Shown here: positions 11,862-56,970 of the stretch, piece after piece
Numbering within the stretch: position 1 is the stretch's first letter
How the letters are laid out: each line of letters opens with the position of its first letter
NCBI RefSeq assembly: GCF_000830005.1
Contig: NZ_CP010407.1
Coordinates: 2,275,001 to 2,339,000, forward strand
Direction: 5' to 3'
Origin: Streptomyces vietnamensis
GTDB lineage: Bacteria > Actinomycetota > Actinomycetes > Streptomycetales > Streptomycetaceae
DNA: 64,000 bases
Program-made: the position numbers and the translations under genes
The notes under the pieces: generated by a model
The model's input: only the letters and a program-made list of their open reading frames with translations
What the model was told of the DNA's origin: nothing
Databases searched by the model: none

Positions 11862-14800
11862 ATGTCGCAGTACCGCCAGGTGCCCGCCCAGGTCGACCTG
11901 CCCGCGCTGGAGCACGACGTGCTCGATTTCTGGCGCGAGAGCAAGGTCTTCGCGAAGACCCTTGAGCAGTCCGAGGGACGCCCCGAGTGGGTGTTCTACG
12001 AGGGCCCGCCCACCGCCAACGGCATGCCCGGCGCCCACCACATCGAGGCCCGCGTCTTCAAGGACGTGTTCCCCCGCTTCCGGACCATGCGCGGCTACCA
12101 CGTGGCCCGCAAGGCCGGCTGGGACTGCCACGGCCTGCCGGTCGAGCTCGCCGTCGAGAAGGAGCTCGGCTTCTCCGGCAAGAAGGACATCGAGGAATAC
12201 GGCATCGCGGAGTTCAACGCGAAGTGCCGCGAGTCCGTGACCCGTCACACCGACGCCTTCGCCGAGCTCACGACCCGCATGGGCTACTGGGTCGACCTCG
12301 ACGACGCGTACCGGACCATGGACCCCTCGTACATCGAGTCGGTCTGGTGGTCGCTCAAGCAGATCTTCGACAAGGACCTCCTGGTCCAGGACCACCGCGT
12401 CGCCCCCTGGTGCCCCCGCTGCGGCACCGGCCTCTCCGACCACGAGCTGGCGCAGGGCTACGAGACGGTCGTCGACCCCTCGGTCTACGTCCGCTTCCCG
12501 CTGACCTCCGGCCCGCTCGCCGGCAAGGCGGCGCTCCTGGTCTGGACGACGACCCCGTGGACCCTGGTGTCCAACACGGCGGTCGCCGCCCACCCCGAGG
12601 TGACCTACGTGGTCGCCACGGACGGCGACGAGAAGCTGGTCGTCGCGGAGCCGCTCCTGGAGAAGGCGCTCGGCGAGGGCTGGGTGACCACGGGCGAGTC
12701 CTTCACGGGCAAGGACATGGAGCGCTGGACCTACCAGCGCCCCTTCGAGCTGGTCGACTTCCCGGACGAGGCGCACTACGTCGTCAACGCCGAGTACGTC
12801 ACCACCGAGGACGGTACGGGTCTGGTCCACCAGTCCCCCGCCTTCGGTGAGGACGACCTCAAGGTCTGCAAGGCGTACGGCCTGCCGGTCGTGAACCCGG
12901 TCCGCCCCGACGGCACCTTCGAGGAGGACGTGCCGCTGGTCGGCGGCGTCTTCTTCAAGAAGGCCGACGAGGCGCTCACCGCCGACCTGGACGCGCGCGG
13001 CCTGCTCTTCAAGCACATCGCGTACGAGCACAGCTACCCGCACTGCTGGCGCTGCCACACGGCCCTGCTCTACTACGCGCAGCCGTCCTGGTACATCCGT
13101 ACGACCGCGGTCAAGGACCGCATGCTGGCGGAGAACGAGAAGACCAACTGGTTCCCGGACTCGGTCAAGCACGGCCGCTTCGGCGACTGGCTGACGAACA
13201 ACGTCGACTGGGCGCTCTCCCGGAACCGCTACTGGGGCACCCCGCTGCCGATCTGGCGCTGCGAGGACGACCACCTGACCTGCGTGGGCTCGCGCGCCGA
13301 GCTCACGGAGCTGACGGGCACCGACCAGTCGGAGCTCGACCCGCACCGCCCGTACATCGACGCGGTCACGTTCCCGTGCCCGAGCGAGGGCTGCGGGAAG
13401 ACCGCCACGCGCGTGCCGGAGGTCATCGACGCCTGGTACGACTCGGGCTCGATGCCGTTCGCGCAGTACGGCTACCCGTACCAGAACAAGGAGCTGTTCG
13501 AGAGCCGCTACCCGGCGCAGTTCATCTCCGAGGCCATCGACCAGACCCGCGGCTGGTTCTACACGCTGATGGCGGTCGGCACCCTCGTCTTCGACAAGTC
13601 CTCGTACGAGAACGTGGTCTGCCTCGGCCACATCCTCGCCGAGGACGGCCGGAAGATGTCCAAGCACCTGGGCAACATCCTCCAGCCGATCCCGCTGATG
13701 GACCAGCACGGCGCCGACGCGGTCCGCTGGTTCATGGCGGCCGGCGGCTCCCCGTGGGCGGCGCGTCGCGTCGGCCACGGCACGATCCAGGAAGTCGTCC
13801 GCAAGACCCTCCTCACGTACTGGAACACGGTCGCCTTCCAGGCGCTGTACGCCCGTACGTCCGGCTGGGCGCCGAGCGCGGCGGACCCGGCGCCGGCCGA
13901 CCGCACGGTCCTGGACCGCTGGCTCCTGAGCGAGCTGAACACGCTGGTCGCCGAGACGACCGAGGCGATGGAGTCGTACGACACCCAGCGCACCGGCAAG
14001 CTGATCTCGGCCTTCGTCGACGACCTCTCCAACTGGTACGTGCGCCGCTCGCGCCGCCGCTTCTGGCAGGGCGACGCCTCCGCGCTGCGCACGCTCCACG
14101 ACGTCATCGAGACGGTCACCCGCCTGATGGCCCCGCTGACCCCGTTCATCACCGAGCGGGTCTGGCAGGACCTGGTGGCGCCGGTGACGCCGGACGCCCC
14201 GGAGTCGGTCCACCTGGCCACCTGGCCCGAGGCGGACGCCACGCTGATCGACGGCACCCTCTCGGAGCAGATGCTCCTGGTCCGCCGCCTGGTCGAACTC
14301 GGCCGCGCCACCCGCGCCGAGTCCGGCGTCAAGACCCGCCAGCCGCTGTCCCGCGCGCTGGTCGCGGCGACGGGCTTCGCGGCGCTGTCACCGGAGCTCC
14401 AGGCCCAGATCACGGAAGAGCTGAACGTCTCGTCCCTGGCGTCCCTGTCGGAGGTCGGCGGCTCGCTCGTCGACACGACGGCCAAGGCGAACTTCCGGGC
14501 CCTGGGCAAGCGCTTCGGCAAGGGCGTCCAGGACGTGGCGAAGGCGGTGGCCGCGGCCGACGCGGCGGCCCTCTCGCTGGCCCTGCGCTCCGGCGAGGCG
14601 ACGCTCTCGGTGAACGGCGAGGAGATCACCGTCACCCCGGAGGAGATCATCATCACCGAGACCCCCCGCGAGGGCTGGTCGGTCGCCTCGGACTCGGGCG
14701 CGACGGTCGCCCTGGACCTGGAGATCACCCCGGAGCTCCGTCGCGCGGGCCTGGCCCGTGACGCGATCCGCCTGATCCAGGAGGCCCGCAAGAACAGCGG

Positions 14801-14999
14801 CCTGGACGTCGCGGACCGCATCGCGCTGCGGTGGTCGTCCACGTCTCCGGAGACGACGGAGGCCCTGACGGCCCACGCGTCCCTGATCGCGGACGAGGTC
14901 CTGGCGACGGACTACGCGCAGGGCGAGCCCGACGCCGCGTACGGTCCCGCCTTCGAAGACGAGGGCCTGACCCTCACCTTCGCCCTCCGCAAGGCGTAA
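11862..14999 (+). CDS. ileS: isoleucyl-tRNA synthetase
   Basis: A class I aminoacyl-tRNA synthetase of 1045 residues. The HIGH-type motif appears as GPPTANGMPGAHHIEAR near residue 50, KMSKH occurs in DGRKMSKHLGN near residue 600, and an editing (CP1) domain with LLVWTTTPWTL lies between. Metal-type cysteine pairs are visible (CPRCGTG, CWRCH, CPSEGCG). The C-terminal anticodon-binding region follows. The length fits the eukaryote-like IleS class found in many actinobacteria, which is often less mupirocin-sensitive; that subtype is inferred from length and motifs. It charges tRNA-Ile in the cytoplasm, is controlled by the T-box leader, and is followed by a terminator hairpin at 15007-15042. Confidence 0.96.
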   Translation: MSQYRQVPAQVDLPALEHDVLDFWRESKVFAKTLEQSEGRPEWVFYEGPPTANGMPGAHHIEARVFKDVFPRFRTMRGYHVARKAGWDCHGLPVELAVEKELGFSGKKDIEEYGIAEFNAKCRESVTRHTDAFAELTTRMGYWVDLDDAYRTMDPSYIESVWWSLKQIFDKDLLVQDHRVAPWCPRCGTGLSDHELAQGYETVVDPSVYVRFPLTSGPLAGKAALLVWTTTPWTLVSNTAVAAHPEVTYVVATDGDEKLVVAEPLLEKALGEGWVTTGESFTGKDMERWTYQRPFELVDFPDEAHYVVNAEYVTTEDGTGLVHQSPAFGEDDLKVCKAYGLPVVNPVRPDGTFEEDVPLVGGVFFKKADEALTADLDARGLLFKHIAYEHSYPHCWRCHTALLYYAQPSWYIRTTAVKDRMLAENEKTNWFPDSVKHGRFGDWLTNNVDWALSRNRYWGTPLPIWRCEDDHLTCVGSRAELTELTGTDQSELDPHRPYIDAVTFPCPSEGCGKTATRVPEVIDAWYDSGSMPFAQYGYPYQNKELFESRYPAQFISEAIDQTRGWFYTLMAVGTLVFDKSSYENVVCLGHILAEDGRKMSKHLGNILQPIPLMDQHGADAVRWFMAAGGSPWAARRVGHGTIQEVVRKTLLTYWNTVAFQALYARTSGWAPSAADPAPADRTVLDRWLLSELNTLVAETTEAMESYDTQRTGKLISAFVDDLSNWYVRRSRRRFWQGDASALRTLHDVIETVTRLMAPLTPFITERVWQDLVAPVTPDAPESVHLATWPEADATLIDGTLSEQMLLVRRLVELGRATRAESGVKTRQPLSRALVAATGFAALSPELQAQITEELNVSSLASLSEVGGSLVDTTAKANFRALGKRFGKGVQDVAKAVAAADAAALSLALRSGEATLSVNGEEITVTPEEIIITETPREGWSVASDSGATVALDLEITPELRRAGLARDAIRLIQEARKNSGLDVADRIALRWSSTSPETTEALTAHASLIADEVLATDYAQGEPDAAYGPAFEDEGLTLTFALRKA

Positions 15000-15074: not shown

Positions 15075-15284
15075 CCGTTGTGGGCAATCGTTCCGCTGGA
15101 GCGGAACGGGTGGGCACAACGGACCCGCGCCCTGCCGGCGCCAGAGGCTTCCGCGCCCGAACCCGCACCACGTCGTGCGGCGCCACTGGGGTGCGGGTCC
15201 AGGCGCGGAACGCGGAGGCGCCGCTGAAGGGCGCCGCCCCGTGTGCCCACCCGTCCCGCCCCAGCGGGACGATTGCCCACACGG
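15075..15284. repeat. palindromic intergenic element, copy A (210 bp)
   Basis: The left end (15075-15122, ccgttgtgggcaatcg...) and right end (15239-15284) are near-identical inverted copies of about 46 bp. Each end is itself a hairpin: inner gttccgc/gcggaac, outer cgttgtg/cacaacg on the left. Inside, 15149-15169 and 15190-15210 form a second inverted repeat with 19 of 21 positions matching. It lies between the convergent ileS and divIVA genes. The same unit recurs at 38971-39178 and 54659-54864. It carries no credible coding sequence. Confidence 0.85.
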
Positions 15285-15482: not shown

Positions 15483-16598
15483 TCAGTTGTCGTCCTCGTC
15501 GATCAGGAAGCCCCGCATCGGCGCCGGCGCCTGCTGCATCGGCTGGGGCGCCTGCGGCCGGACCGGAGCCATCGGCTGGGTCATCGCCGGGGACATCTGC
15601 TGCTGGCCGCCGTAGGAGGGGGCACCGCCCATGGACGGCGCACCGCCCATCGCGCCGTTGCCGCCGTAGGACGGCGCGCTCGCGCCCGCCGAGGCCATCG
15701 ACGGGGCCGGCGGCAGCGAGGCCGTGGCCGGGGTGCGCGGCGGGGCCAGCGAGTCGTCCGCCTGGGTCTCCAGCTGACGCAGCTGGGACTCCAGGTAGGA
15801 CTTCAGACGCGTGCGGTACTCGCGCTCGAAGCCGCGCAGGTCCTCGACCTTGCGCTCCAGCGTGGCGCGGGCGGACTCGAGGGAGCCCATCGCGACGCGG
15901 TGCTTCTCCTGCGCGTCCCGCTCAAGAGCGTCCGCCTTGGCGCGGGCGTCCCGCTCCAGGCCCTCGGCGCGGGAGCGCGCCTCGCCGACGATCTTGTTGG
16001 CCTCGGAGCGCGCCTCGGCGATCGCCTGGTCGGCGGTCTGCTGGGCGAGCGAGAGGACACGCGCGGCACTGTCGCCACCGGGGCCCTGCTGCGGCTGCTG
16101 CATCTGCGGCGGCTGCATCTGCTGCTGCTGCGGGTGACCCATGGGGCCGCCCTGCATCGGGCCGGGACCCATCGGTCCGCCCTGCATGGGGCCGCCCTGC
16201 ATCGGGCCGGGGCCCATGGGCCCGCCCTGCATGGGGCCGCCCTGCATGGGGCCGGCGGGAAGCGCGGGGGCACCGGACGGCAGCTGCGGCGGACCCATCT
16301 GCGGCTGCTGCTGCTGAGGGGCCGGCGGTCCGGATATGGCGGCGGGCACGGGCGCGCCGGGACCGACGGGACGATCCTGCGGCTCCGGGGGCTTGCGCAT
16401 GCCCTGCTGCTGGTTCTGCGCGGCGGCACGCGTCGCGGCGGCCAGCTTGGCGCGCAGGTCCTCGTTCTCGCGGAGCAGGCGGGTCAGTTCGGCTTCGACC
16501 TCATCGAGGAAGGCATCGACCTCGTCCTCGTCATAGCCTTCTCGAAGGCGGACGGTCGTGAACTGCTTGTTCCGCACGTCCTCGGGGGTCAGCGGCAT
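15483..16598 (-). CDS. divIVA: DivIVA polar growth/division scaffold (Wag31)
   Basis: A 371-residue protein with the conserved DivIVA N-terminal membrane-binding domain (MPLTPEDVRNKQFTTVRLREGYDEDEVDAFLDEVEAEL). It has coiled-coil regions at about residues 30-65 and 170-300 (EARSEANKIVGEARSRAEGLERDARAKADALERDAQEKH). They are separated by a Pro/Gln/Gly/Met-rich linker containing repeats of MQGGP and MGPGP, and the C-terminus is also Pro/Gln-rich. In streptomycetes DivIVA marks hyphal tips and directs apical wall growth and branching, and it is essential. SD gaggtga stands 7-8 nt before the ATG. It is the last gene of the division cluster, 67 bp after yggT. Confidence 0.97.
   Translation of the reverse strand: MPLTPEDVRNKQFTTVRLREGYDEDEVDAFLDEVEAELTRLLRENEDLRAKLAAATRAAAQNQQQGMRKPPEPQDRPVGPGAPVPAAISGPPAPQQQQPQMGPPQLPSGAPALPAGPMQGGPMQGGPMGPGPMQGGPMQGGPMGPGPMQGGPMGHPQQQQMQPPQMQQPQQGPGGDSAARVLSLAQQTADQAIAEARSEANKIVGEARSRAEGLERDARAKADALERDAQEKHRVAMGSLESARATLERKVEDLRGFEREYRTRLKSYLESQLRQLETQADDSLAPPRTPATASLPPAPSMASAGASAPSYGGNGAMGGAPSMGGAPSYGGQQQMSPAMTQPMAPVRPQAPQPMQQAPAPMRGFLIDEDDN
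16140..16256. repeat. tandem coding repeat inside divIVA
   Basis: Reiterated DNA units (gggccgccctgcatsggg) encode the Met-Gln-Gly-Gly-Pro / Met-Gly-Pro-Gly-Pro linker. All changes keep the frame. Copy number is likely variable between strains. Confidence 0.7.
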
Positions 16599-35106: not shown

Positions 35107-36461
35107 TGAGTGGCGCCGCCGTGCCGGAGGGCCAGCGGGGCGACGAGGACGACCGGGGCGGGCTGCGGGCCGCCCTCGGCGGTCTCACCACCCGCGGCCG
35201 CTCCTTCCTCGCCGCGGGAGTGGCCGCCGCCGTCTGCGCGTACGTCCTCGGCCAGGCCGACCTGCTGCGCGTCGGGCTGCTGCTCGCCGCCCTGCCGCTG
35301 ATCTGCGTCCTCGTGCTGCACCGGACCCGCTACCGGGTCGCCGCCTCCCGCCGGCTCACCCCCCAGCGGGTCGAGACCGGCACCGAGGCCCGGGTCCAGC
35401 TGCGCATGGAGAACGTCTCCAAGCTGCCCACCGGCCTCCTGATGCTCCAGGACCACGTGCCGTACATGCTGGGGCCCCGCCCCCGCTTCGTCCTCGACCG
35501 GGTCGAGGCCGGCGGGCGGCGCGAGGTGTCCTACCGGGTCCGCTCCGACCTGCGCGGCCGCTTCCCGCTGGGCCCCCTCCAGCTGCGGCTCAACGACCCC
35601 TTCGGGATGTGCGAGCTGACCCGCTCCTTCAGCGCGTACGACACCCTCACCGTCGTGCCCCGCACCGAGGCCCTCCCGCCGGTGAAGCTCTTCGGCGAGG
35701 CCTCCGGGTACGGGGACGGGCAGTCCCGCTCCCTCGCGCTCGCCGGCGACGACGACGTCATCCCGCGCACCTACCGCCACGGCGACGACCTGCGCCGGGT
35801 CCACTGGCGCTCCACCGCCCGCTACGGCGAGCTGATGGTCCGCCGCGAGGAGCTGCCCCAGCGGGCCCGCTGCACCGTCCTCCTCGACACCCGCCGGATC
35901 GCCTTCCAGGGCGCGGGCCCCGACTCCGCCTTCGAATGGGCCGTCTCCGGCACCGCCTCCGCCCTCGTCCACATGCTGGAGCGCGGCTACGCGGTCCGGC
36001 TGCTCACCGACACCGGCAGCGCGATCCCCGGCGAGGGCGCCGAGGGCTTCGCCGGCTCGGCACAGGACTCGGCCGAGGCGGCCGGACTGATGATGGACAC
36101 CCTCGCGGTCGTCGACCACTCCGAGGGAGCCGGGCTCTCCCGCGCCTCCGACGTGCTGCGCGGCGGCGGCGACGGGCTGCTCATCGCCTTCCTCGGCGAC
36201 CTCGACGAGGAGCAGGCGGCCCTCACCGCCAGGATGCGCGGGCGGACCGGCGCGGCCGTCGCCTTCGTCCTGGACTCCGGCACCTGGCTCACCGGCGGCT
36301 CGGTGACCGGAGCGGTCGAGGACCGGGTGCGGCAGCTGCGGGAGGCGGGCTGGACGGCCCTCGCCGTACCGCCCGGCGCCTCGCTCGCCGACCTGTGGCA
36401 GCAGGCGGCCGGACTCCGCCCGGAGACCGCCGCCGCCGACACCTACGGAGGATGGTCATGA
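35106..36461 (+). CDS. DUF58 domain-containing membrane protein
   Basis: A protein of about 451 residues. Two hydrophobic segments near the N-terminus (SFLAAGVAAAVCAYVLG and LLRVGLLLAALPLICVLVL) precede the DUF58 region with the signature DDVIPRTYRHGDDLRRVHWRSTARYGELMVRREE. The C-terminal part resembles a von Willebrand A-type fold. These proteins pair with MoxR ATPases. ATG 35106 overlaps the moxR stop, and the 3' end overlaps the transglutaminase ATG (ATGA, 36458-36461), so the three genes form one tight operon. Confidence 0.92.
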
Positions 36462-38854
36462 GCGGCCGCACACGGCTGACGCTCGCTTCCTGGGGCGCCA
36501 CCCTGATGGCGGCCGGGGCGCTGCTCCCCCTGGTGAAGCCGGCGACCTGGATCTTCACGGCGGCCTTCGTCCTCGCCCTGGTGAGCGGGGTGGGCACACT
36601 GGCCCGCCGGGTGCCGCTGGCCCGGCCGCTGACGCTGCTGGCCCAGCTCGTCGTCGTGCTGCTCGCACTGACCGTGTGCTTCGCCCGCGAGCAGGCCCTC
36701 CTGTGGTTCCTCCCGGGCCCCGAGGTCTTCACCCACGCCGTCGAGCTGTTCCGGGCGGGCGCCGAGGACGTCGGCCGGTACGCGATCCCCGCGCCCGACA
36801 CCGAGGGCATCCGGCTCATGCTGGTCGGCGGCGTCGTCGCGATCGGGCTCCTGGTGGACGCCCTCGCGGTCACCTTCCGCAAGGCGGCCCCGGCCGGCCT
36901 GCCGCTGCTCGCCCTGTACTCGGTGGCCGCCGGTCTCTCCGGCGGCGGCGCCGGCTGGCTCTGGTTCCTCCTCGCTGCCTCCGGCTATCTGCTGCTGCTC
37001 CTCGCCGAGGGCCGTGACCGGCTCTCCCAGTGGGGCCGCGTCTTCGGCGGCGCCCAGCGCTCCGCCCGCCCCGGCTCCAGCGTCGCCGCCGGCGGGCCCG
37101 CCTTCGCCCCGGCGCGCACCGGCCGCCGGATCGGCGCCGTCGCCATGGGCGTCGCCCTGGTGGCACCGCTCGCGCTGCCGGGCTTCTCCGGCGGCCTCTT
37201 CGGAGGCGGCGGCGAGGGGGGCGGGGGCGCCGGCAAGGGCGGCACGATCTCCGCCGTGAACCCGCTGGTCTCCCTCCAGAACAACCTGCGCCAGCCGGAG
37301 GACCGGGAGGTCCTGCGCTACCGGACCAACGCCCGCGACACCAGCGGGCTGTACCTGCGGCTCGTCGCGCTCGACCAGTTCGACGGCACCTCGTGGAAGT
37401 CCTCGGTCCGCCCGATCGAGGACGTGCCCAAGCAGCTGCCCTGGCCCGACGGCCTCTCCCAGAGCGTCCGGATCACCGAGGTGACCAGCAACTTCGTCGC
37501 CTCCGACGCGTACGAGCAGAAGTGGCTGCCGATGCCGTACCCGGCCGGCCGGGTCGACATCGAAGGACGCTGGCGGTACGAGCCGGCCGGCCGGATGCTC
37601 GTCGGCGACGACCGGCAGACCACCAAGGGCGCCCGCTACCAGGTCTCCAGCCTGGACGTGCAGCCGACGGCCGGGCAGCTGGCCGGCGCAGGACCCGCCC
37701 CCGAGAAGCTGCGCCGCGAGTACACCAAGGTGCCAGCCTCGCTGCCGGGCGACGTGAAGGCGACGGCCCTGAAGGTCACCAAGGGCGCGCGCAACGACTA
37801 CGAGCGGGCGGTGAAGCTCCAGGACTGGTTCGCCCAGGACGGCGGCTTCCGCTACGACGTCGACGTGGTGTCCGGGACCGGGGTCCAGGCCATCTCCCGC
37901 TTCCTGAAGGACAAGGAGGGCTTCTGCGTCCACTTCTCCTTCTCCATGGCGGCGATGGCCCGCTCGCTCGGCATCCCCGCGCGGGTCGCCGTGGGCTTCA
38001 TGCCGGGCACGACGCAGACCGACGGCTCGGTCTCCGTCGGCATCCGGGACGCGCACGCCTGGCCCGAGCTGTACTTCGAGGGCGCCGGGTGGACACGGTT
38101 CGAGCCGACGCCCTCGCGGGGCTCCACCCCCGCGTACACCCGGGAGAACACCCCCTCGGGCACGGCCACCGGGCCCGCGCAGCCGCAGCAGAGCGCCTCG
38201 GCGCAGCCGTCCGCCGCGCCGAGCGCCTCGGCGAGCTGCACCCCGCAGGAGAAGAAGCTCGGCGGGTGCGGCCCGGACGCGGCGGCCGCGGACGCGGCCT
38301 CGGACGGCTCGGGCCCCGACCTCCTGACGGTGACGCTCGTGACGGCAGGGGTCCTGCTCCTCCTCGCCCTGCCCTTCCTGCCCCTGCTGTGGCGCAGGCG
38401 GGTGCGGGCCCGGCGGCTCGGCGCGGACGGCTCCGCCCTCGCGGTCTGGGAGGAGATCAACGACACGGCCTGGGACCACGGGGTCGAGCCGGACGACTCC
38501 CTCACGCCGAGGAAGGCGGCGGCGCGGATCGTCCGCCTCGGTGAGCTGCGGGGCGAGTCCGCGGACGCGGTGCACCGGGTGGCGCGGGCGGTGGAGGAGG
38601 TGCTGTACGCGCCCCGGCCGCGGCCCGTCGCGGACCTGGCCTCCGAAGCGGCGCGGGTCCGCGTGGGCTTCCACGCGGGCGCCGACCGCCGCACCCGGCT
38701 CCGCGCCCTCCTGGCCCCGCGCTCGGCGGCCCGCGTCCGCTGGGCGGCGTCGTCCCGCTGGGCCGCGGCGACGGCGCGCTGGGCGGGGTGGCGGCAGGCG
38801 GCGACGGCGCGAGCGACAGCCGTCTTCCGCCGCGGGCCCCGCGAGGCGAACTGA
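36458..38854 (+). CDS. TgpA-type membrane transglutaminase-like protein
   Basis: A protein of 798 residues. It has about six N-terminal transmembrane segments over residues 1-260, then an extracytoplasmic transglutaminase-like domain. The Cys-His-Asp core is visible in DKEGFCVHFSFSMAAMARSLGIPARV and IRDAHAWPELYFEGAGWTRFEPTP. A Ser/Ala/Pro-rich linker, a last transmembrane helix (LLTVTLVTAGVLLLLALPFLPLL) and a cytoplasmic DUF4129-like tail (LTPRKAAARIVRLGELRG) follow. The architecture matches DUF3488/TgpA proteins. The reaction and substrate are unknown here; proteolysis or crosslinking in the envelope are options. ATG 36458 has SD ggagg. Confidence 0.92.
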   Translation: MSGRTRLTLASWGATLMAAGALLPLVKPATWIFTAAFVLALVSGVGTLARRVPLARPLTLLAQLVVVLLALTVCFAREQALLWFLPGPEVFTHAVELFRAGAEDVGRYAIPAPDTEGIRLMLVGGVVAIGLLVDALAVTFRKAAPAGLPLLALYSVAAGLSGGGAGWLWFLLAASGYLLLLLAEGRDRLSQWGRVFGGAQRSARPGSSVAAGGPAFAPARTGRRIGAVAMGVALVAPLALPGFSGGLFGGGGEGGGGAGKGGTISAVNPLVSLQNNLRQPEDREVLRYRTNARDTSGLYLRLVALDQFDGTSWKSSVRPIEDVPKQLPWPDGLSQSVRITEVTSNFVASDAYEQKWLPMPYPAGRVDIEGRWRYEPAGRMLVGDDRQTTKGARYQVSSLDVQPTAGQLAGAGPAPEKLRREYTKVPASLPGDVKATALKVTKGARNDYERAVKLQDWFAQDGGFRYDVDVVSGTGVQAISRFLKDKEGFCVHFSFSMAAMARSLGIPARVAVGFMPGTTQTDGSVSVGIRDAHAWPELYFEGAGWTRFEPTPSRGSTPAYTRENTPSGTATGPAQPQQSASAQPSAAPSASASCTPQEKKLGGCGPDAAAADAASDGSGPDLLTVTLVTAGVLLLLALPFLPLLWRRRVRARRLGADGSALAVWEEINDTAWDHGVEPDDSLTPRKAAARIVRLGELRGESADAVHRVARAVEEVLYAPRPRPVADLASEAARVRVGFHAGADRRTRLRALLAPRSAARVRWAASSRWAAATARWAGWRQAATARATAVFRRGPREAN

Positions 38855-38970
38855 CGACACCGCCACCGTGGCGGGCGCCGCGCCCCACCGCCCGCTACGG
38901 ACAGCCCCTCCACCGGGCCGACGGCCCCCGTTGTGGGCAGCCGCTCCACCGGGGCGGCGCCCCGCCGCTC
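38855..38970. other. 5' flank of palindromic element B with partial repeats
   Basis: Contains two tandem degenerate units (ggacagcccctccaccggg and gggcagccgctccaccggg) that resemble half of an element end. No gene is seen between the transglutaminase stop and the element. Confidence 0.5.
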
Positions 38971-39178
38971 CCGTTGTGGGCAATCGTTCCGCTGGGGCGG
39001 AACGGGTGGGCACAACGGACCCGCGCCCTGCCGGCGCCCGAGGCTTCCGCGCCTGAACCCGCACCCCGTCGTGCGGCGCGGTCAGGGTGCGGGTCCAGGC
39101 ACAGGGGGCGGGGCGCGGCCAGGCGCGCCGTCCCGTGTGCCCACCCGTCCCGCCCCAGCGGGACGATTGCCCACACGG
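38971..39178. repeat. palindromic intergenic element, copy B (208 bp)
   Basis: The left end (38971-39018) and right end (39133-39178) match copy A almost base for base in the same orientation, again as inverted copies that each fold into a hairpin. The inner arms (ttccgcgcctgaacccgc and gcgggtccaggc) are present too. It lies between the convergent transglutaminase and DUF3040 genes. In-frame translations across it give only the repeat-derived peptides found at all three copies. Confidence 0.85.
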
Positions 39179-40122: not shown

Positions 40123-40911
40123 TCAGGCCCGCTTCTCGCCGAGAACGTGCAGCTGGGTGGCGATGGCGTGGAAGGAGGGCAGCTCCGCGGCGGCCGCCTC
40201 CAGCTTGAGCAGGGCCTCGGCGGCGCCGGGCTCGGTGTCGACGAGGACGCCGGGGACCAGGTCGGCGAAGACCCGGACGCCGTGCACGGCGCCGACCTCG
40301 AGTCCGGCTCCGTCGGCGAGCTCGGCGAGCTGCTCGGCGGTGAAGCGCCGGGGCACGGGGTCGCCGGCACCCCAGCGGCCCGCCGGGTCGTCGAGGGCGT
40401 GCCGGGCCTCGGTGAAGTGGCCGGCGAGGGCGCGGGCCAGGACGGCGCCGCCGACCCCGGCGGCGAGCAGGCTGAGGCTGCCGCCGGGGCGGAGCGCCGC
40501 GACCGCGTTCCGTACGCCCTCGGCGGGGTCGTCGACGTACTCCAGGACGCCGTGGCAGAGCACCGTGTCGTACGCCTCGCGCTCGACGACGTCGAAGAGG
40601 CCGCGGATGTCGCCCTGGACGCCGGTGACGAGGTCGGCGACACCGGCCTCGGCGGCCCGGCGCTCCAGCGCGAAGAGCGCGTTGGGGCTGGGGTCGACGA
40701 CGGTGACGCGGTGGCCGAGGCGGGCCACCGGTACCGCGAAGTTGCCGGAGCCGCCACCCGTGTCGAGGACGTCGAGGCTGTCCTTCCCGGTGGCCTCGAC
40801 CCGGCGGTCCAGGGCGTCTTTGAGGACGTCCCAGACGACGGCGGTACGCAGGGAGGCGCGCGACGGGCGCGACGACGCCTCTCGACCGAAGACAGGGGAA
40901 GGGTCCGGCAC
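40123..40911 (-). CDS. class I SAM-dependent methyltransferase
   Basis: A protein of 262 residues from GTG 40911 with SD gaggag. SAM-binding motif I: LDVLDTGGGSGNFAVPVARLGHRVTVVDPS. Later motifs: GVQGDIRGLFDVVEREAYDTVLCHGVLEYVDDP and LRPGGSLSLLAAG. It resembles the SmtA/CmoM-like group of methyltransferases, but the substrate cannot be named from sequence. It lies 67 bp after the HEPN-like gene on the same strand. Confidence 0.88.
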   Translation of the reverse strand: MPDPSPVFGREASSRPSRASLRTAVVWDVLKDALDRRVEATGKDSLDVLDTGGGSGNFAVPVARLGHRVTVVDPSPNALFALERRAAEAGVADLVTGVQGDIRGLFDVVEREAYDTVLCHGVLEYVDDPAEGVRNAVAALRPGGSLSLLAAGVGGAVLARALAGHFTEARHALDDPAGRWGAGDPVPRRFTAEQLAELADGAGLEVGAVHGVRVFADLVPGVLVDTEPGAAEALLKLEAAAAELPSFHAIATQLHVLGEKRA

Positions 40912-52198: not shown

Positions 52199-52285
52199 CC
52201 GACCACCTTACGCATCTGACGGACCGTCAGGAAGGGAGGGGTCTGTGGCCCCCCGGAGACGCGGGCTAGTCTGGCGGGCGTAAAG

Positions 52286-52386
52286 CACTCGCGGGAGTCC
52301 GGACGCACCGGGCTGAGAGGGAGGCTGGGACGGCCTCCGACCGTACGAACCTGATCCGGGTCATGCCGGCGAAGGGAGGGGCTGGA
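52286..52386 (+). promoter_or_regulatory. TPP riboswitch (THI element) of thiO-thiS-thiG
   Basis: Conserved aptamer blocks in order: gcgggagtccgg (52291-52302), gggctgagaggg (52310-52321), the variable P3 hairpin aggct...cggcct, then gaacctgatccgggtcatgcc (two pieces, from 52348) and ggcgaagggag. The final purine-rich block serves as or overlaps the thiO SD, 10-20 nt before ATG 52392, so control is probably at translation initiation. TAGTCT at 52267-52272 is a fitting -10. Confidence 0.95.
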
Positions 52387-52391
52387 CGCCC

Positions 52392-54558
<2,167 letters not shown>

Positions 54559-54658
54559 CCCCGTTGCGGACCCGCGCCCGCCGCTGTGGGCCGCGCCCGC
54601 CCCGTTGTGGGCAATCGTTCCGCTGGGGCGGTGCCCACCCGCACGGACGGCGCCGCCC
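54559..54658. repeat. partial element ends upstream of copy C
   Basis: Carries a truncated extra copy of the element's left end (ccgttgtgggcaatcg from 54602, broken after ggggcgg) and weaker versions before it (ctgtgggccgcgcccgcc). This suggests local duplication of the hairpin ends. Confidence 0.6.
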
Positions 54659-54864
54659 CCGTTGTGGGCAATCGTTCCGCAGGGCGGAACGGGTGGGCAC
54701 AACGGACCCGCGCCCTGCCGGCGCCAGAGGCTTCCGCGCCCTGACCCGCACCCCGTGCACGGCGCTCGGTCGGTGCGGGTCCAGGCACGGAACGCCTAGG
54801 CCCGGCTGGGGGCGCCGTCCCGTGTGCCCACCCGTCCCGCCCAGCGGGACGATTGCCCACACGG
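54659..54864. repeat. palindromic intergenic element, copy C (206 bp)
   Basis: The left end (54659-54705) and right end (54820-54864) match copies A and B in sequence, order and orientation. The inner arms (ttccgcgccctgacccgc and gcgggtccaggcac) are kept, but the central part differs (cgtgcacggcgctcgg). It lies between tandem genes, thiG and the kinase, rather than in a convergent gap. Confidence 0.85.
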
Positions 54865-55089: not shown

Positions 55090-56970
55090 GTGGACACGAC
55101 CCTTCAGGACCCCCTCGTCGGGCGGCTGCTCGACGGCCGCTACCGCGTCGACGCGCGCATCGCCGTCGGCGGGATGGCCACGGTCTACCGGGCCGTCGAC
55201 ACCCGCCTCGACCGCGTCCTCGCGCTCAAGGTGATGCACCCCGACCTCGCCACGGACGCCGCCTTCGTCGAGCGGTTCATCCGCGAGGCGAAGTCCGTCG
55301 CCCGGCTCGCGCACCCCAACGTCGTCGGCGTCTTCGACCAGGGCGCCGAGGGCGCGTACGTCTATCTGGCGATGGAGTACGTCGCCGGCTGCACCCTCCG
55401 CGACGTCCTGCGCGAGCGCGGCGCCCTCTCGCCCCGGGCCGCGCTCGACATCCTGGAGCCGGTCCTCGCCGCGCTCGGCGCCGCGCACCGGGCCGGGTTC
55501 GTGCACCGGGACATGAAGCCGGAGAACGTCCTGATAGGGGACGACGGCCGGGTGAAGGTCGCCGACTTCGGTCTCGTCCGGGCCGTGGGCTCGGCGACGG
55601 CCACCACCGGCGCGGTCCTCGGCACGGTCTCGTACCTCGCGCCGGAGCAGATCGAGCACGGCACCGCCGACACCCGCGCCGACGTGTACGCCTGCGGCGT
55701 CGTCCTCTACGAGATGCTGACCGGCGGCAAGCCGCACTCCGGCGACACCCCCGCCCAGGTGCTCTACCAGCACCTGAACACCGACGTGCCCGTCCCCTCC
55801 GCCACCGTCCCCGGGCTCGCCCCGGAGCTCGACGACCTGGTCGCGGCGGCCACGGCCCGGAACCCCGAGCTCCGTCCGTACGACGCCGTCGCCCTGCTCG
55901 CCCTGCTCCGGGAGGCCCGCGCCGGGCTCGGCGACGAGCAGCTGGACGCGGTGCCGCCGCTGGCCCGCTCCGAGGCCCGGGACACCGCCGAGGACCGGAC
56001 CAGCGTGATCGCCAGGCCCGTACCCGTGGAGCACACCAACCGGCTGCCCGCCCCGGAGGCGCCCCGCGCCGGCCGCCGGCGGCCCCCGCGCGGCCCCCTC
56101 CTCGCGGTCGTCGCCGTCCTGCTCGCCCTCGGCCTGGGCGCCGGCGTCTGGTACATCAATTCCGGCCAGTTCACCCGCGTCCCCGCAGTCCTCGGCCAGT
56201 CCGAGGCCGCCGCGACGAAGCGCCTCACGGACGCCGGTCTCGACGTCGGCACCACGAAGCGCGCCTTCAGCGACGTGTACGAGCGCGGCACGGTCATGGC
56301 CGTCGACCCGGCCCCCGGCGAGCGCGTCCGGGGCAACGGCACGGTCACCCTCACGCTCTCCCGCGGCCCGCAGATCGTGAAGGTGCCCAACCTCAAGGGC
56401 AAGCCGCTCGCGGAGGCCAAGCGCGACCTGGAGCAGGAGGGCCTGGCGCCCGGGGTGATCACCTACTCCTTCAGCGACTCCGTCGCTCAGGGCTCCGTGA
56501 TCGGCTCCGACCCCGAGCCCGGCACCGAGCGCAGCCCCGACTCGGCCGTCGCCCTGGTGGTCAGCAAGGGCTCTCCGATCGACGTGCCCGACGTCAGCGG
56601 CGAGACCGTCGCCGACGCCACGGCCGCCCTCCAGGAGGAGGGGCTCACCGTGAAGGTCGCCCCGGAGCGGATCAACTCCCCCGAGGAGGCCGGAACCGTC
56701 GCGGCCCAGTCCCTCGCCGGGGGCAGCCGGGCCGCCGAGGGCGATGTCATCACCCTGACCGTCTCCAAGGGCCCGAAGCTGGTCGAGGTCCCGGACGTGA
56801 CGGACCGGTCGACCGAGGACGCCCGGACGGCCCTGGAGGACGCGGGCTTCGAGGTGGAGGTCAAGAAGTCCTTCCCCTACCTCGGCGACAAGGTCGCGAG
56901 CCAGTCCGTGGAGGGCGGGCAGACCGCGCCCGAGGGCTCCACCATCACCATCACGATCAAGGGACTCTAG
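55090..56970 (+). CDS. Ser/Thr protein kinase with PASTA domains
   Basis: The 626-residue PknB-type receptor kinase starts with GTG. The kinase domain has the Gly-loop VGGMATVYRAVD, ATP lysine in LALKVMHP (K47), catalytic loop VHRDMKPENVL (D141; HRDMKPEN instead of the common HRDIKP), DFG in VADFGLVRA (D159) and APEQ. One transmembrane helix follows at about 336-355 (LLAVVAVLLALGLGAGVWYI), then four PASTA repeats of about 66 residues each (start points VPAVLGQ, VPNLKGK, VPDVSGE, VPDVTDR). PASTA domains bind muropeptides or lipid II, so it senses wall status. nfo follows after 6 bp. Confidence 0.95.
   Translation: MDTTLQDPLVGRLLDGRYRVDARIAVGGMATVYRAVDTRLDRVLALKVMHPDLATDAAFVERFIREAKSVARLAHPNVVGVFDQGAEGAYVYLAMEYVAGCTLRDVLRERGALSPRAALDILEPVLAALGAAHRAGFVHRDMKPENVLIGDDGRVKVADFGLVRAVGSATATTGAVLGTVSYLAPEQIEHGTADTRADVYACGVVLYEMLTGGKPHSGDTPAQVLYQHLNTDVPVPSATVPGLAPELDDLVAAATARNPELRPYDAVALLALLREARAGLGDEQLDAVPPLARSEARDTAEDRTSVIARPVPVEHTNRLPAPEAPRAGRRRPPRGPLLAVVAVLLALGLGAGVWYINSGQFTRVPAVLGQSEAAATKRLTDAGLDVGTTKRAFSDVYERGTVMAVDPAPGERVRGNGTVTLTLSRGPQIVKVPNLKGKPLAEAKRDLEQEGLAPGVITYSFSDSVAQGSVIGSDPEPGTERSPDSAVALVVSKGSPIDVPDVSGETVADATAALQEEGLTVKVAPERINSPEEAGTVAAQSLAGGSRAAEGDVITLTVSKGPKLVEVPDVTDRSTEDARTALEDAGFEVEVKKSFPYLGDKVASQSVEGGQTAPEGSTITITIKGL

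Follow-up and report, generated by a model that had tools for sequence, protein, structure and literature searches.

A REP-like hairpin doublet of Streptomyces shares many addresses between species and carries a sequence that follows the genome

The chromosome of Streptomyces vietnamensis carries a family of REP-like, REPIN-shaped repeats, a known general kind of element in Streptomyces and its family, whose addresses are inherited between related species and whose sequences turn over in concert, with each species carrying its own version. The question of how REP-like repeats persist, through transposition, selection or gene conversion, dates from the 1980s. In the present family, address and sequence are dissociated: species have many addresses in common but not the sequences at them. 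The family occurs without a detectable TnpAREP, which makes it a tractable system for testing conversion against re-insertion. The best explanation, and on balance a probable one, is that REP-like hairpins are homogenised by ectopic gene conversion. The genus matters for antibiotics, and such repeats can mislead comparisons that are based on sites.

The window, that is, the whole stretch of 64,000 nucleotides analysed (contig NZ_CP010407.1, positions 2,275,001 to 2,339,000), contains three copies of the doublet on the + strand, confirmed where the first-pass annotation had placed them: copy A at 15075-15284, copy B at 38971-39178 and copy C at 54659-54864 (91% mean column identity when aligned). 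With neighbouring genes identified by Pfam, copy A lies in the convergent gap between ileS (11862-14999, +) and divIVA (15483-16598, -), and copy B in that between a TgpA_N/transglutaminase gene (36452-38854, +) and a methyltransferase gene (40123-40911, -). Copy C is located between thiG (53764-54558, +) and a gene for a PASTA-domain protein kinase (55090-56970, +). In the doublet, two inverted hairpin units of about 47 nt flank a hairpin-forming middle of about 115 nt, and in each unit a GGGCANN/GGTGGG internal loop separates the paired outer stem from an inner stem rich in GC. The left unit of copy A is of the CGTTCC type (15075-15122, +), the middle is a long imperfect hairpin (15123-15238, +) and the inverted right unit is of the CGTCCC type (15239-15284, -). 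The corresponding units are located at 38971-39018 (+) and 39133-39178 (-) in copy B and at 54659-54705 (+) and 54820-54864 (-) in copy C; all six scored 67-77 bits with covariance model R1.

The inverted ends, the second inverted repeat nested inside them and the hairpin in each end, all described previously from the letters of the sequence, were recovered in copy A. The outer inverted repeat is 40 nt long (93%, with an interval of 123 nt) and the nested repeat pairs 15136-15169 with 15190-15223 (34 nt, 79%). When folded as DNA and compared with dinucleotide shuffles, the left and right units gave z scores of -7.2 and -6.2, the middle -3.0 (2 of 200 shuffles folded equally well) and the whole copy -10.8 (0 of 200), and the best fold of the whole strand was a single hairpin of 210 nt. 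Base composition does not account for the resemblance of the copies, as the 17-nt half-site with three or fewer mismatches matched the window seven times against a shuffled expectation of 0.40. Arm remnants also lie outside two of the copies: a degenerate left arm at 38928-38958 (+), read in the sequence beside copy B, and an older left arm at 54602-54631 (+; R1 16.9 bits, E 0.099) beside copy C, with the half-site GTGGGCAATCGTTCCGC at 54607-54623.

The count of three copies in 64 kb, correct for the window, understated the family, since at least 73 doublets are present in the genome of S. vietnamensis (9.15 Mb searched). GTGGGCANNCGTNCCGC had 98 + 92 matches genome-wide, compared with 0 + 0 for the reversed control, and blastn with copy A, for which 40 of 217 candidates were scored, located at least 40 full-length copies. 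The CGTCCC-type half-site GTGGGCANNCGTCCC matched the genome 79 times, 71 times in asymmetric doublets, four times in two symmetric doublets and four times in solo units. The 578,720 bases extracted around the matches contain 73 doublets and 32 solo units; 73 is a minimum, as doublets that lack an exact CGTCCC half-site could escape. The ends were asymmetric in 71 of the 73, with one CGTTCC-type and one CGTCCC-type unit; in the remaining two (6090287-6090484 and 6989323-6989522) both units are of the CGTCCC type, and in the tree the latter doublet groups with a copy of the relative Streptomyces sp. NK15101. The distance between the outermost half-sites was 196-202 bp in 66 doublets, 190 bp in one and 236-238 bp in six, and all six of the longest contain the motif GCTCGAGCGAAGCCGAG of an additional hairpin arm inside the element. 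This module replaces the inner stem of one unit in some doublets (S. vietnamensis loci L034, L051, L099, L277, L281 and L283) and is present in relatives too, for example at NK15101 loci L320, L331 and L333; hairpin modules thus seem to be swapped within units. Mean pairwise identity within the genome was 0.889 (67 copies shorter than 225 nt). Doublets were densest at 2-3 Mb (22 of 73) and sparse near the chromosome ends (two below 1 Mb and one above 8 Mb), and a collapsed near-palindrome was found at 7879782-7879842.

The first-pass annotation had suspected structural selection on the arms, and the pattern of substitutions in the stems supports this. To count as a unit, a sequence had to contain GTGGGCA exactly, match GTGGGCAC with no more than one mismatch and form six or more of the eight inner pairs. 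These letters and the inner stem are therefore partly constant by construction, and the unconditioned test is that of the five outer pairs. Among 96 distinct units, 426 of 480 outer cells were paired (shuffled mean 322, maximum 344) and 95 cells were changed on both sides (shuffled 28, maximum 40). When the 50 units from other loci were taken alone, 217 of 250 cells were paired (164 shuffled, maximum 176) and 53 carried double changes (14.6 shuffled, maximum 23). The second outer pair, for example, is TA in 46 units, GC in 29, CG in 20 and broken in one. Similar results were obtained with alignment A2, which holds 49 distinct units (7 of the 46 available from S. vietnamensis and 42 of the 50 available from other loci). 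Its drawn stems were paired in 95.5% of cells, 67 cells showed double changes against 17.6 in shuffles, and the covariation score was 0.237 against 0.082 shuffled and at most 0.077 for slid versions. In A2 there was no clear excess of pairs that ever changed on both sides (6 vs 4.9) or of pair types (15 vs 13.3), values reached by 79 of 500 shuffles. Because A2 omits 14 of 63 units, including one S. tanashiensis unit with a broken outer stem, the outer stem was recounted on all 96 units as given above, and the result holds. Further, the changes that distinguish left from right units are matched between the two arms (CGTTCC/GGAACG and CGTCCC/GGGACG). The strong compensatory change in the outer stem indicates that what is conserved is the hairpin. 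Of the two sides of the internal loop, GGGCANN belonged to the search pattern and is constant by construction; the opposite side, GGTGGGCAC, lay outside the doublet search. It was found in 140 of the 146 units that make up the S. vietnamensis doublets and, among full-length NK15101 elements, in 82 of 96 units. This constancy may reflect recognition or mere homogenisation.

MITEs such as Correia/NEMIS are short, non-coding and bounded by inverted ends. The Streptomyces element is alike in these respects, including its inverted terminal repeats, but no parent transposon or target duplication is established for it: site C is unoccupied in two species, and any duplication is unreadable, the flanks being unalignable up to the ends of the element. 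The identities proposed earlier (a MITE, a nucleoid or terminator element, or a structured RNA) are still plausible in part. The inverted ends of the first were found, and the region of copy A held no stem-loop followed by a T run. Matches to Rfam at the element, chiefly to microRNA families, all fell below the gathering score, and membership of a listed Rfam family was rejected. Plasmid and phage records gave no match to the element; two exact 17-mer matches in IMG/VR, located without a hairpin in stretches of 54% and 44% GC, were judged to be chance, and an integron attC site was set aside on visual comparison with the consensus.

The closest kind is the REP/REPIN, and no named family was found to include the repeat, as the annotation had likewise reported. 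The element is a short palindromic repeat in many copies, 71 of 73 outside called genes, and is thereby a REP in the broad sense; it is also an inverted REP doublet able to form a hairpin. It resembles the REPIN/REP doublets of Bertels and Rainey (2011; PMC3116915) in that two hairpin units, inverted relative to each other across a spacer, occur extragenically in many copies, with solo units as well as doublets. It differs in length, about 200 bp against segments of 71-110 bp there, and in that the REPIN-associated RAYT/TnpAREP (Y1) was not detected in the Streptomyces genome (PF01797, 0 matches). Its sequence follows the genome and not the site, as that of REPINs may also do. The GTAG/CGTC-tagged REPs (PMC3733652) are likewise short palindromic hairpins of high copy number but have an unpaired end tag, which the Streptomyces element lacks: its ends are a paired variable stem in alignment A2, where CGTC/CGTT is restricted to the inner stem. 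No word starting with "Streptomyces" or "actino" occurs in the main text of that paper. In TnpAREP systems, too, the hairpin is the repeated object (PMC6006769). A search of open-access literature by title and start of abstract, with most subscription journals outside it, retrieved no description of the repeat. Within this literature the class appears to be undescribed, and the covariance model and species-specific signatures are supplied here for it.

The distribution of the element is patchy. Under strict filters, R1 had matches in 30 of the 150 genomes from the family, presumably Streptomycetaceae, and these represent 4 of the 17 genera. In a sample of 296 genomes from the phylum it matched four, all belonging to the genus of S. 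vietnamensis. Nine of 150 genus genomes had at least ten unit matches (forward plus reverse); one or two matches per genome is close to what the control gave, and a unit that is fully palindromic counts twice. Forward/reverse matches numbered 68/63 in NK15101, 61/46 in S. wedmorensis, 41/29 in S. nymphaeiformis, 34/48 in S. tanashiensis and 10/8 in S. exfoliatus. The Y1 transposase (PF01797) had no match in the S. vietnamensis genome, whereas 5 of 14 control genomes matched. In the genus, Y1 was present in 46 of 150 genomes and was not associated with the units (3 of 9 unit-rich genomes vs 43 of 141 others). A Y1 transposase as the helper of the element was therefore rejected. According to a published survey (PMC6006769), the Actinobacteridae it sampled carry only subclass 1.1 TnpAY1, which by our own reading of that source is the insertion-sequence type.

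The copies had been described as all intergenic. This holds for 71 of the 73 doublets; the other two lie inside genes called by a crude home-made gene caller, which placed 33 doublets in convergent, 33 in tandem and 5 in divergent gaps. The 33 of 71 doublets in convergent gaps compare with 13% of element-free gap bases (binomial p 1e-11), and the 5 of 71 in divergent gaps with 30% (p 3e-6), the controls being element-free gaps in the same stretches around the elements. With gaps as the units, the odds ratio was 5.2 for convergent (p 9e-9) and 0.34 for divergent gaps (p 0.02). There was no bias in leading or lagging orientation (40 of 71, p 0.34, assuming an origin in the middle of the chromosome). 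The excess in convergent and deficit in divergent gaps, together with the compensatory changes in the stems and the addresses common to species, would suit a hairpin with a function for the host, namely a bidirectional 3'-end, transcription or supercoiling element selected at gene ends. Functions of this kind have been proposed for REP/BIME. However, copy A sits between hairpins that follow ileS and divIVA, 66 of the 72 species loci that could be read have nothing unit-like in the gap between these genes, the distribution is patchy, and avoidance of promoters would equally suit a tolerated parasite. The absence of a terminator-like site with a T run at copy A counts against such a function as well, although Streptomyces terminators may lack the T run. 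We therefore hold a host function to be possible, at a tentative level; it is compatible with either mechanism of turnover discussed below, and the probabilities need not sum to one.

The addresses were compared among relatives. In NK15101, 60 listed places, covered by 59 loci, yielded 55 distinct elements, of which 38 lie at addresses occupied in S. vietnamensis (37 by a doublet and one by a solo unit); for the other 17 there was no match in the extracted S. vietnamensis sequence, the region being absent or the site empty. The aligned flanks at common addresses were 86-97% identical, and by arithmetic about four common sites are expected by chance even if only 1000 gaps were eligible. Among the 37 doublet pairs, orientation was kept in 28 and flipped in 7, with two left unassigned. 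Over the orthologous regions of 64-67 kb, the units of S. vietnamensis, S. tanashiensis and NK15101 are confined to the three window sites, all of which are occupied in each genome; site C is inverted in S. tanashiensis. In S. nymphaeiformis, site A is inverted, site B is a short palindrome and site C is unoccupied, and S. exfoliatus has no units at sites A-C. A quick ileS tree joined S. nymphaeiformis to NK15101 (SH-aLRT 98), so its lack of an element at site C is more simply loss than the ancestral state.

The ileS-divIVA gap was readable in 72 of 80 species loci (eight were dropped; L205 has Ns in the gap), and unit-like sequence was found in 6 of the 72. The gap of S. narbonensis and Root1304 holds a different palindromic sequence. 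A palindrome with GGTTTCGGGAAGGGGCGGGG or near forms occupies the gap in other species (L134, L139 and L140), and palindromes of the GGTTTCGGGAAGGGGCGGGG type adjoin several solo units in G089 (L250, L251, L252, L255 and L256). Near-palindromes of 61-63 bp in S. nymphaeiformis (L233, L237-L242) are collapsed forms, with the outer arms of both units around a short GC-rich hairpin. At the sites of five of these seven, S. vietnamensis has a doublet, and four collapsed NK15101 forms (55-61 bp) are also located where S. vietnamensis has one. Thus the structure, too, differs at fixed addresses. In total, 12 of 17 S. nymphaeiformis loci lie near an S. vietnamensis doublet, one near a solo unit, and four were unmatched.

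In contrast to the addresses, the sequences were not common to species. For the 32 full-length NK15101/S. vietnamensis pairs (five of 37 were dropped, the NK15101 copy being shorter than 190 bp), identity was 0.8522 at the same site and 0.8502 at different sites. Of 2000 random pairings, 358 reached the same-site value (standard deviation 0.0022), so an excess of one or two points would have been visible. The site-mate ranked at a median of 32.5th of 73, for 31 of the 32 copies on either side the closest copy lay in their own genome, and a tree of 64 copies needed three changes of species label. A same-site excess was absent from five of six overlapping sub-regions and weakly positive in the right part of the middle (0.849 vs 0.840, p 0.027 uncorrected). 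The three S. tanashiensis copies were 0.889, 0.821 and 0.824 identical to their S. vietnamensis site-mates, compared with averages over the S. vietnamensis copies of 0.867, 0.835 and 0.826. In seven S. nymphaeiformis pairs, the site-mates ranked 16-62 of 73, and same-site identity (0.882) was slightly above the S. vietnamensis average (0.871). The nearest copy of ten full-length S. nymphaeiformis copies was of the same species in seven cases, from NK15101 in one and from S. vietnamensis in two.

Such species-specific clusters would also arise if each species had undergone an independent burst at the same hot-spot gaps, without overwriting, and the other palindrome in the ileS-divIVA gap of S. 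narbonensis and Root1304 agrees with this. However, independent bursts would have to hit exactly the three window sites in each of three genomes, together with 38 common addresses out of 55 in NK15101; they also leave polymorphisms common across species (below) and a within-genome diversity of 11%, against a difference of about 7% between S. vietnamensis and NK15101 over the orthologous region. We regard this explanation as strained and very unlikely. By the same evidence, the recent spread suggested in the first-pass annotation mostly falls away: the addresses are largely common to NK15101, and the diversity (identity 0.889) exceeds the expectation for a burst after the species split.

The variable positions provide evidence on how the sequences are overwritten. 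In S. vietnamensis, linkage between them fell from an r2 of 0.285 at less than 10 bp to 0.01-0.02 beyond 25 bp (p 0.001), and in NK15101 from 0.278 to 0.02-0.05 (p 0.001); all four combinations were found in 56% and 70% of site pairs, respectively. Fourteen positions vary in both species (5 expected), 12 of them with the same letters, and in the variable middle alone 12 polymorphic positions are common to both (5.8 expected, p 0.001). The decay of linkage and the common polymorphisms fit old variants that are reshuffled between sites, as conversion predicts. Alternatively, a star-like tree with recurrent mutation could give the low linkage at long range, and changes spanning several bases, or positions that pair, the linkage at short range. 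Under conversion, the near-palindrome would extrude or fold during replication, and the extruded palindrome would be broken or would stall the fork, with SbcCD as a candidate nuclease complex. Repair would then copy another family member into the broken address, so that the address, often a convergent gap or the 3' end of a gene, would be inherited and its sequence overwritten from copies in the same genome. A homologue of sbcD is present in S. vietnamensis (188.7 bits), which makes the break model possible but no more. A paper of 1988 by Higgins et al. is said, from its title, to ask whether REP sequences evolve by gene conversion; the Streptomyces family allows that question to be put site by site across species.

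The flanks point in another direction. Immediate flanks were unalignable between species over a median of 72 bp per side in NK15101 and 110 bp in S. vietnamensis (72 flanks). Further, around the 73 S. vietnamensis elements, arm remnants were polarised, with 90 left-oriented vs 5 upstream and 79 right-oriented vs 5 downstream; they were present upstream of 51 and downstream of 44, and control gaps held about 0.05 per flank. The 55 NK15101 elements showed the same polarity (22 vs 3 upstream and 39 vs 1 downstream). Plain conversion does not predict polarised nested remnants and unalignable flanks, which insertion into old copies explains directly, although the end remnants might arise by repeated slippage or by conversion of the ends. 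Re-insertion would involve a non-autonomous element, mobilised in trans by a postulated enzyme, that prefers old copies as its targets; new copies would replace old ones at fixed addresses, and the old arms would be pushed outward. The 7 flips among 35 oriented pairs are in line with this, as is the lack of an element at site C in both S. nymphaeiformis and S. exfoliatus. On the other hand, orientation was kept in 28 of the 35, and no helper gene was found in a search for Y1 enzymes, which are absent from S. vietnamensis and no commoner in unit-rich genomes, as described above. The flips also count against conversion, as do the weak sub-region excess and, in S. nymphaeiformis, the values of 0.882 vs 0.871 and the 3 of 10 nearest neighbours from other genomes. 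With the linkage evidence for conversion and the flank evidence against it, we consider conversion the somewhat probable mechanism and self-targeted re-insertion rather unlikely.

A bolder form of the conversion model is a selfish palindrome that has no enzyme of its own: its hairpin would provoke breakage by an SbcCD-type host nuclease, repair would copy family members in, and the family would homogenise and resist decay. We judge this form to be improbable; if true, it would be a gene-drive-like repeat powered by DNA structure alone at dozens of fixed addresses. Two minor observations concern single loci. A pair of S. nymphaeiformis units 2 kb apart (L257), viewed by eye, is a possible autonomous element. 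In the window, an ordinary TPP riboswitch is located at 52281-52394 (+), upstream of a gene for an FAD-dependent oxidoreductase (thiO-like), a short gene and thiG.
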